A stretch of 23,837 bases of DNA from a virus: IMG/VR virus record IMGVR_UViG_3300008113_000378, positions 1-23,837 of that record, one strand, 5' to 3'. Below, in pieces: positions 324-2,429 of this stretch. Made by a program: the position numbers and the translations under genes. The notes beneath the pieces were generated by a model, which saw only the letters and a list, made by a program, of their open reading frames with translations, was not told where the DNA came from and searched no databases. Each line of letters starts with the position of its first letter. Positions within the stretch are counted from its first letter, which is position 1.

Positions 324-710
324 ATGGCGAGTGCAAAGAAGACTAACCCTGAAAAATGGAACCGTATTGTGGCAAGCGTTAAGGCTGGTACCAAAGGTGG
401 AGACCCCGGTGAGTGGTCTGCACGTAAAGCACAACTTGCTACGCAACAGTACAAGTCCTCTGGTGGAGGCTATGTAGGTCCTAAAAGCAGTGATAACAGC
501 CTAGCAAAGTGGACGGACCAGAAGTGGCGTACGAGTGACGGCAAGCCTAGTGAAGGTAAGAAGCGTTATCTACCTGACAAGGCTTGGAGCGCACTTTCTC
601 CTGCGGAGAAGGTAAGTACTAACCGTGCTAAGGCTGCTGGTAACAAGGCTGGAAAACAATTTGTGGCACAACCAAAGACAATTGCTGCAAAAACCAAGGG
701 ATTTAGATGA
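324..710 (+). CDS. DUF5872-like small basic phage protein
   Basis: This 128-residue, Lys/Arg-rich protein has no signal peptide or membrane segment. It matches, from memory, the DUF5872 family of environmental phages and cyanophages: an N-terminal K-x-W-x-R-I-V-A-S-V-K-A-G-T-K-G-G segment, then W-S-A-R-K-A-Q-L-A followed by G-G-G-Y-V-G near residues 31-52, a K-W-T-D-Q-K-W core, an R-Y-L-P-D-K-A-W segment near residues 80-87, and a C-terminal G-K-Q-F-V-A-Q-P-K-T tail. The family's biochemical function is not known to me. The ATG follows GAGG by 8 bases. Its stop overlaps the dUTPase start by 4 bases (ATGA), so the two are translationally coupled. Together with the DUF6321-like gene at 4303 it places the phage among aquatic types. 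Confidence 0.75.
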   Translation: MASAKKTNPEKWNRIVASVKAGTKGGDPGEWSARKAQLATQQYKSSGGGYVGPKSSDNSLAKWTDQKWRTSDGKPSEGKKRYLPDKAWSALSPAEKVSTNRAKAAGNKAGKQFVAQPKTIAAKTKGFR

Positions 711-1126
711 TTACAAAAGACACGTTTGTTGTATTGGATGGAGCCAAACAGCCTACGCTTGCTACGGAGCATAGTGCTGGTTTTGACCTTCATGCTTTTG
801 ATGACTATGAAATTCAAATTGGTCAGACCGTTATTTTAGAAACAGGCGTTAGCCTAAAAATGCCATATGGTTACTACGCTATGGTTTGCAGCAGGTCAGG
901 GATGGCTGCCAAGAGTAGTACATTTGTTCTCAATGCACCGGGAATTATCGATGCCGACTATACAGACACTATAAAGGTAATCTTGCATAACACTGGGCAT
1001 CGTCCATTCAACTGCAAGAAGGGTGACCGTATTGCACAACTTGTATTTGTGCCTGTAGTGCAGGTTGCAACAGCATTAAAAACTTCTACAGAACGTATTG
1101 GTGGACTTGGCTCTACTGGAAAGTAG
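707..1126 (+). CDS. dut: Trimeric dUTPase (dUTP diphosphatase)
   Basis: Hydrolyses dUTP to dUMP and pyrophosphate in the cytoplasm, keeping uracil out of phage DNA and feeding dTMP synthesis. All five motifs of the homotrimeric family are visible in 139 residues: motif 1 A-G-F-D-L-H-A (24-30), motif 2 C-S-R-S-G-M-A (61-67), motif 3 N-A-P-G-I-I-D-A-D-Y (76-85, with the catalytic Asp in I-D-A-D-Y), motif 4 G-D-R-I-A-Q (106-111) and motif 5 R-I-G-G-L-G-S-T-G (130-138), which closes over the nucleotide. Motif 5 is one residue shorter than the common R-G-x-G-G-F-G-S-T-G, and motif 3 ends in D-T instead of the usual R-G. Length is typical. The start overlaps the preceding stop by 4 bases. Confidence 0.96.
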   Translation: MITKDTFVVLDGAKQPTLATEHSAGFDLHAFDDYEIQIGQTVILETGVSLKMPYGYYAMVCSRSGMAAKSSTFVLNAPGIIDADYTDTIKVILHNTGHRPFNCKKGDRIAQLVFVPVVQVATALKTSTERIGGLGSTGK

Positions 1127-1135
1127 TTGTATAAT
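1107..1135 (+). promoter_or_regulatory. Candidate promoter at the end of dut
   Basis: TTGGCT at 1107-1112 and a perfect TATAAT at 1130-1135 are separated by 17 bases. The element lies over the last codons and stop of dut. The predicted start is about 1142, so the transcript would run only about 88 bases to the terminator at 1188-1229, with no coding capacity. This is one of the best -10 matches in the window. Confidence 0.5.
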
Positions 1136-1141
1136 CACCTT

Positions 1142-1229
1142 GAAAGGCAACTTTCAAGAAAACCAATAACAAACAACTAACCAACAGAAAACCCTCTCAG
1201 AGAAGTCGTACGCTCTAAGAGGGTTTTTT
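1142..1229 (+). ncRNA. Candidate phage small RNA
   Basis: This is inferred from architecture only. Downstream of TTGGCT-N17-TATAAT there is a perfect 8-bp hairpin, 1139-1146 with 1151-1158, closed by a GCAA (GNRA) tetraloop; its base falls at or just before the predicted start. Then comes a roughly 30-base linker of almost only A and C (about 1159-1187) with no ATG or GTG start, and then a strong intrinsic terminator (1188-1229). Hairpin, unstructured linker and terminator is a typical bacterial small-RNA layout. The linker is also what an evolved single-stranded pairing or translation-enhancer region looks like. The alternative is an untranslated 3' tail of dut plus a shared terminator. Confidence 0.4.
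1188..1229. terminator. Bidirectional intrinsic terminator
   Basis: AAAACCCTCT at 1188-1197 pairs perfectly with AGAGGGTTTT at 1218-1227 (10 bp), and inner GAG/CTC bases (1200-1202 with 1213-1215) can extend the stem. On the plus strand six T residues (1224-1229) follow the G run. On the minus strand the A run at 1188-1191 supplies a T tract. It lies between the converging dut operon and the minus-strand block, so it should serve both. Confidence 0.85.
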
Positions 1230-1247: not shown

Positions 1248-1472
1248 TTACTTTTTACCACGCATACGATGCTCTTTCATTTCGCCACGCATCATGGCTG
1301 CTTTGGACGCAGGGCGCTTGCCGTATTCTTTGGCTTCAGCCTTCATTACGGCTTCGCTATTCTTCATCTTTTTGCCATGCTCGGCAGATTCCATTCCCAT
1401 CATTTTGGACAACGATGGCTTTCCCTTTTGCATCGCCATCTTACCGGCTGGATAGGGCATTCCCATTGGCAT
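1248..1472 (-). CDS. Small Met/Lys-rich protein with three E-x-x-E-H/Y repeats
   Basis: A 74-residue, strongly basic, methionine-rich protein with no recognised family. After a Met/Pro-rich start it holds three helical units of 18 residues, marked by E-S-A-E-H-G (28-33), E-A-K-E-Y-G (46-51) and E-M-K-E-H-R (64-69). The plus-strand gene at 5041-5274 carries the same three-unit plan, so the two look paralogous although they lie on opposite strands about 4 kb apart. The ATG is preceded by AGGAG with 7 bases spacing, a strong ribosome site. It is the last gene of the minus-strand block, ending just before the terminator at 1188-1229. Function is unknown. A nucleic-acid- or virion-associated role is only a guess from charge. 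Confidence 0.7.
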   Translation of the reverse strand: MPMGMPYPAGKMAMQKGKPSLSKMMGMESAEHGKKMKNSEAVMKAEAKEYGKRPASKAAMMRGEMKEHRMRGKK

Positions 1473-2078: not shown

Positions 2079-2093
2079 TGGTACTCCTAAAAT

Positions 2094-2138
2094 TTTTACG
2101 GGTGAGGGGTAAAAGATTTACCCCTAACTATAACTATA
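2094..2138 (-). promoter_or_regulatory. Palindromic operator or leader hairpin ahead of the 2078 gene
   Basis: A perfect 9-bp inverted repeat, AGGGGTAAA (2105-2113) and TTTACCCCT (2117-2125), has a 3-base centre. On the minus strand two adjoining TATAGT hexamers (2138-2133 and 2132-2127) lie immediately upstream, so the palindrome would sit at the start point, a classic repressor position next to the XRE gene. A competing pairing exists: TTTTAC 2094-2099 with GTAAAA 2109-2114. No T tract follows the hairpin on the minus strand, which argues against a simple intrinsic terminator for the XRE gene. No good -35 hexamer was found. Confidence 0.4.
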
Positions 2139-2429
2139 TTAACTAATCTCTTTATTAGTTATATCTTTGGCAAGGATGACGTAATAGCACTCAGACAGAG
2201 CAGTCATAAACGTGTACATATCCACATCTAATCCATTGATAATCTTGGTAATAACACCAATGCCTACAGACCTACGTCCTAGTTCGATGTCAGTCATATA
2301 CGTTCGGTTGATTCCTGACATATGAGCAAGAGTCTCTTGCCCAATACCTTTTTTTGCTCGAAAGTACTTGACCGTTCTACCAAGTGCTAATTCAATGGTT
2401 CCGGCTACTGCTTTAGGGTCTCGTCTCAT
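2139..2429 (-). CDS. XRE-family (Cro/CI-type) transcriptional regulator
   Basis: A 96-residue protein with a lambda-repressor-like helix-turn-helix at about residues 17-72: the scaffold helix K-Y-F-R-A-K-K-G, then Q-E-T-L-A-H-M-S-G-I and the recognition helix N-R-T-Y-M-T-D-I-E-L-G-R-R, the last a family signature. A short C-terminal tail (about 75-96) is too small for a CI-type dimerisation or cleavage domain, so it is closer to Cro or a stand-alone XRE protein. It starts directly after the stop of the upstream gene (TAA-ATG), so it is probably coupled to it. The palindrome at 2105-2125, just beyond its 3' end, is a candidate target. Confidence 0.9.
   Translation of the reverse strand: MRRDPKAVAGTIELALGRTVKYFRAKKGIGQETLAHMSGINRTYMTDIELGRRSVGIGVITKIINGLDVDMYTFMTALSECYYVILAKDITNKEIS

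Follow-up and report, generated by a model that had tools for sequence, protein, structure and literature searches.

A predicted small-RNA gene behind dut in an environmental phage, probably a divergent representative of an apparently undescribed family

The interval behind the dUTPase gene (dut) of an environmental phage probably holds a free-standing small-RNA gene whose product would act in trans. It would belong, as a divergent copy, to a family of sRNAs that occurs in uncultured environmental phages and has apparently not been described before. Sequence comparison predicts an RNA of ~85–88 nt that consists of a GNRA-capped hairpin, an unstructured AAC-rich segment and an intrinsic terminator. 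That a discrete short RNA is the product, as proposed in a preliminary description of the site, appears very probable from the spacing between the -10 element and the start site, the GNRA hairpin, the linker, the terminator and the recurrence of the unit elsewhere. The most likely interpretation is a trans-acting phage sRNA that works via its single-stranded AAC-rich segment.

Organisation of the site

The window, which is the whole stretch of DNA analysed (23,837 nucleotides), corresponds to one virus contig of 23.8 kb, on which terminase, portal and capsid-like genes are found. The dut gene (707–1126, plus strand; 139 aa), an open reading frame with tblastn matches to many phage dUTPases, lies 5' of the RNA. 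Between dut and the minus-strand gene cluster that comes next lie 121 non-coding bases; the convergent gene of this cluster at 1248–1472 (minus strand, 74 aa) has relatives in the contigs L033 and L037 and in distant phages. Since this gene faces the RNA, there is nothing downstream for the window RNA to lead.

The elements listed in the preliminary description are all present on the plus strand, namely TTGGCT (1107–1112), a 17-nt spacer, TATAAT (1130–1135), a hairpin (1139–1158), a linker (1159–1187), a terminator stem (1188–1227) and a run of six T. As a promoter, TTGGCT and TATAAT match the consensus in 10 of 12 positions. The first 12 kb of the window contain 17 sigma-70-like sites, against 21 expected from shuffles, and the consensus match alone is thus no evidence for a promoter. 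The predicted start is G1142, the seventh base after TATAAT. In the DNA, the hairpin has the eight base pairs described (CTTGAAAG-GCAA-CTTTCAAG), but a start at 1142 removes the outer three (1139–1141/1156–1158), which lie upstream of +1, and the RNA would carry only the 5-bp core, GAAAG-GCAA-CUUUC with its GNRA loop (1142–1155). The single-stranded A/C-rich linker with AAC repeats (AATAACAAACAACTAACCAACAG) then extends over 1156–1187, up to the intrinsic terminator at 1188–1229 (stem 1188–1202/1213–1227, loop 1203–1212, T6 at 1224–1229), which can also serve the convergent minus-strand operon. Positions 1127–1232 fold with -33 kcal/mol (z -6.5 against dinucleotide shuffles) and the predicted RNA itself (1142–1229) with -24.2 kcal/mol (z -5.8), a signal that is partly just that of a terminator between convergent operons.

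Three other observations concern the surroundings of the site. Positions 52–216 of the window are non-coding and conserved, being also found at 1–200 of L037, and contain a long-range stem (AATTGCCACT...AGTGGCAATT), then T7, and GGGGACCCC-type palindromes; with a fold z of only -1.4, they are another candidate RNA or terminus element. The 5' UTR of the gene at 2078–1671 (window 2090–2150, minus strand) carries a hairpin (GGGGTAAA...TTTACCCC) preceded by TATAGT, which is nearly identical in the window phage and its two closest relatives and has the same layout of a -10 element and a hairpin near +1 as the sRNA. Additionally, the gene preceding dut (MASAKKTNPEKW..., 128 aa; window 324–710) is found ~5 kb away in L037 (5057–5437), and phages that are more distant have it in inverted orientation.

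Conservation in close relatives

Two sister phages in IMG/VR, L001/L034/L037 (dut 89%) and L002/L033 (dut 86%), have the same dut and neighbourhood as the window and form a trio with it. No further close relatives were found by dut and neighbour-protein alignments; the exact window hairpin had no match in IMG/VR, and patterns for the trio-specific -10/hairpin and terminator loop matched the two sisters only.

Comparison of positions 1127–1229 shows that the -10 region, TTGTATAATCA, is identical across the trio. The -10 half of the proposed promoter and its spacing to +1 are therefore kept, here and in the wider family, but the -35 half did not hold up, as TTGGCT reads TAGGCT or TAGGTT in the two sisters. 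It is not conserved and sits within the codons of the invariant GGLGSTGK C-terminal end of dut, so that its resemblance to a functional -35 element is probably fortuitous. The start site fared better, since the conserved hairpin of the trio begins exactly at G1142, which supports its prediction. This hairpin has a 5-bp stem with one two-sided change and a GCAA or GUAA loop, while the outer three pairs of the 8-bp form are absent in both sisters and unique to the window phage. An objection that transcription from 1142 would destroy the hairpin was dropped, as the relatives conserve only the part behind +1. The lack of coding potential was likewise borne out: the one candidate, a 17-codon frame from a TTG at 1128, was rejected because an early stop interrupts it in L037, although the window and L033 keep it open.

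In and behind the linker, 31 consecutive A/C-rich bases (1169–1199) are invariant, the linker being unchanged from 1169 onwards. Three-way invariance at fourfold sites amounts to 36% in dut, 37% in terL, and 55% and 62% in two minus-strand genes; against this background, an unbroken run of 31 bases points to strong constraint. The terminator stem is also kept, with one two-sided change, and its loop GAAGTCGTACGCT (1202–1214) is invariant, although conservation in the trio could partly serve the terminator of the convergent operon. With regard to covariation, the two two-sided pairs were equalled in 55 of 500 shuffles, and three sequences alone do not separate the signal from shuffles.

Relocation of the unit in distant relatives

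More distant phages of the same lineage have TerL proteins 72–76% identical and dut 55–58% identical, with a different gene order. Their dut is followed by other stem-loops, which lack TATAAT and a GNRA hairpin. A different strong stem-loop stands after dut at L039:6220–6290 and L046:2156–2240, and in L054 such an element again precedes minus-strand ORFs.

A covariance model built from the trio nevertheless found matches in this lineage at L052:1780–1886 (E 0.0014), L054:492–587 (E 0.0076) and in L026 (E 0.013), and weaker ones in L048 and L039. Read by eye, these matches consist of a -10 element, 6 nt, a G, the hairpin GCCACC-GNRA-GGUG-A-GC, a AACAACAAC linker and a terminator; the L026 hairpin has GCAAG/CUUGC arms and a six-base loop. 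A further weak match, in L040, resembles coding sequence and was taken as chance. The covariance search suggested in the preliminary description thus does recover hairpin–linker–terminator units in related phages, but not after dut. The RNA lies away from dut in L039, L048, L052 and L054, and the assumption that its place behind this gene is a property of the family had to be given up. Phages that keep dut while lacking the hairpin and promoter had been named as evidence against the RNA; distant relatives are of this kind as far as the position after dut is concerned, but by sequence comparison the unit appears to have been relocated rather than to have vanished.

The wider family

A pattern made from the diverged copies, CACCGNRAGGTGAG-N3..20-AACAACAAC, which describes the hairpin and the AAC motif only and is silent on promoter and terminator, matched 19 IMG/VR contigs, of which 18, corresponding to 12 distinct sequences, were accepted as family. 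In all 18 contigs a TANNNT stands 5–6 nt before the +1 G (background 3.3%; 0/3 among chance matches), and many have a TG before the -10 element; such an extended -10 could explain why a -35 is dispensable. By a simple rule, 15 of these contigs have a terminator; in the remaining three, one is revealed by folding. The nineteenth match (L087) and the only two matches in the GTDB genome collection (L088 and L089) lack both -10 and terminator and were regarded as chance.

Nearly all members have a GNRA hairpin loop on the plus strand (GCAA, GUAA, GAGA, GAAA), and the arms differ between groups with pairing retained, the hairpin sequence GCCACCGNRAGGTGAG being strongly conserved within the main group. 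In L074, L076, L082 and L084, AACAACAAC is the loop sequence of an additional hairpin with variable arms that still pair (TTGCGA/TCGCAA, TTGCAA/TTGCAA, ATTGCA/TGCAAT, TTACC/GGTAA). Most records hold one strong copy. Directly behind the first unit, a second, non-identical one with a -10-like box, hairpin and terminator is found in L084 (2962–3060, minus strand), L082 (11348–11450, plus strand) and L076 (1870–1955, minus strand). The neighbours vary and include a putative nuclease-like gene of the SNase type (VVDGDTLEGDIDLGFG...) on either side, a DNA methyltransferase-like gene in convergent orientation, a tRNA-Asn and a small gene. The family therefore has the appearance of a self-contained promoter–RNA–terminator unit at varying genome positions.

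The window site shares the features of this family: the TANNNT (TATAAT-CACCTT-G1142, as in the sisters), a 5'-terminal GNRA hairpin, with arms unlike the GCCACC...GGUG-A-GC of the main group, an AAC-rich linker and an intrinsic terminator, with the G and the hairpin in equivalent places. When the window linker was aligned with those of L052, L078 and L054, the score was reached by 4, 17 and 35 of 2000 dinucleotide shuffles, respectively, and by none of 2000 in any of the three cases for the linker of the sister L033; alignments to L074, L076 and L084 were not significant against shuffles. In the reverse direction, a core covariance model built without the trio ranks the RNA site first in the window (E 0.14) and in L033 (E 0.31), if weakly, and misses L037. 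The statistics of the link are thus moderate (E 0.0014 in one direction and 0.14 in the other); taking all features together, we consider with good confidence that the window RNA is a diverged member of the family.

Possible function and alternative explanations

In the proposed mechanism, host RNA polymerase with the housekeeping sigma factor would make the RNA during infection, and the 5' hairpin and 3' terminator would protect it. The AAC-rich single strand would be the working part, pairing in trans with U/G-rich mRNA segments, with the RNA perhaps docked on an Hfq-type chaperone. Base-pairing in trans is a tentative prediction. In target prediction, as proposed in the preliminary description, the top sites differ among the trio phages and no shared target emerged. 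The AAC repeats fit ARN or AAYAAYAA-type sites of the distal face of Hfq; the ARN-type motifs AATAACAA and AACAACAAC and the T6 tail can be read in the sequence, and are suggestive only with respect to Hfq dependence. Hfq is a candidate partner whose involvement seems rather unlikely. The host signals are mixed between actinophages and alphaproteobacterial phages, as portal and capsid resemble those of actinophages while TerL resembles that of a roseophage, a pelagiphage and a Rhizobium phage. A search for WhiB, an actinobacterial marker, found none, TerL was not found in GTDB genomes, and a search for a T7-type RNA polymerase gave no match, but neither did its control.

Several other explanations were considered. 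The site might simply be the 3' end of the dut mRNA, with a bidirectional terminator and a stabilising hairpin, a coincidental TATAAT, and either no separate RNA or a processed 3'-UTR fragment. The position between convergent operons would suit this, as would the A/C linker, whose complement on the minus strand reads as the T-rich tail of a terminator in the reverse direction, the chance number of promoter matches and the unconserved -35. We nonetheless consider it unlikely, given that the -10/+1 spacing is kept in the trio and throughout the family, that the unit is also found after or before other genes, and that the invariant block exceeds the length that a U tract needs. A cis-acting 5' leader or attenuator controlling read-through into the next gene, of which the window copy would be a stand-alone remnant or variant, is less probable still as a general account, and is the main alternative for members with a gene directly after the terminator. 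The terminator immediately precedes a gene's ATG in L054, L039, L075, L048 and L026, and several linkers have CCAAATG at their end, together with a tiny open frame. However, different genes follow in different members, the tiny frames show no conservation, and in L072, L078, L083 and L084 the unit is followed, as first gene of substantial size, by a convergent methyltransferase; the trio has no co-directional gene downstream, and as the next gene in the window is convergent, a leader role cannot explain the window copy.

The RNA could also be a decoy: rather than pairing with mRNAs, it would sequester a protein of the host that binds RNA (Hfq-like, cold-shock or ribosomal) via its AAC repeats or GNRA hairpin. 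The conserved AACAACAAC, sometimes displayed in a hairpin loop, the strong conservation of the hairpin in the main group and the lack of a common pairing target would agree with this, but the hairpin sequence of the trio is entirely different and decoys often occur in multiple copies, while these records mostly hold one strong copy; a decoy thus seems very unlikely. Finally, the palindrome just downstream of the -10 box could be a repressor site in the DNA rather than an RNA hairpin, which is highly improbable in view of the near-constant GNRA loop on the plus strand and of arms that vary between groups and still pair. The preferred reading remains that of a trans-acting sRNA. A broader version of it, more tentative than base-pairing itself, is that of a lineage-wide sRNA gene, sometimes in tandem non-identical units, which would reprogramme host or phage mRNAs via the AAC repeats or capture a host RNA chaperone, and which would be kept as an independent gene despite the reshuffling of gene order.

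Relation to known RNAs and significance

Trans-acting sRNAs of phages include PreS of lambda (~88 nt), sar of P22 (68/69 nt) and VpdS (~50 nt) (Table 1, PMC12197685). The window RNA resembles these as a short non-coding phage RNA of similar size for which trans action is proposed, but no sequence or Rfam relation to them was found, and its family differs in the 5' GNRA hairpin and AAC-rich linker, in recurring at varied places and in belonging to phages of uncultured hosts. With Hfq-binding sRNAs it shares A-rich ARN-type repeats in a single strand and a terminator with U6, but here binding is predicted and the host may lack Hfq. Attenuator leaders also combine a promoter, a structured RNA and a terminator, and in some relatives a gene directly follows, but none does in the window and several relatives.

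Type III toxin–antitoxin RNAs are identical tandem repeats followed by a terminator and then an endoribonuclease gene. These and the abiF RNA (RF03085) are likewise short phage- or defence-linked RNAs, sometimes with more than one unit. The family units, by contrast, are not identical repeats and have no toxin gene after them: the window has a single unit with convergent genes behind it, the second units in L076, L082 and L084 differ from the first, and no toxin-like gene was recognised by eye among the neighbouring ORFs. In two contigs the abiF RNA is present as an element of its own, on the strand opposite to the sRNA. It exceeds its gathering score at L084:2838–2874 and L079:636–671 (both plus strand), and in L084 it stands just behind the 3' end of a DNA methyltransferase-like gene.

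No Rfam 15 family exceeded its gathering threshold in the window (the best, His_leader, had 22 bits against 49), and none matched over the RNA in at least six relatives. Furthermore, when two family RNAs were compared by blastn with 50,697 phage records, no match was obtained, and no description of the family RNA was found in the open literature searched. The kind, a phage-encoded sRNA, is known (PMC12197685), and the family appears to be new.

Here, comparative genomics yields a family that spans many contigs of environmental viruses and shows a clear promoter, a fold and a conserved single-stranded motif. Phage sRNAs known so far have mostly been discovered one at a time and in phages whose hosts can be cultured. 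Metatranscriptomes or a plasmid construct now offer a way to test the expression, partner and targets of this predicted family.
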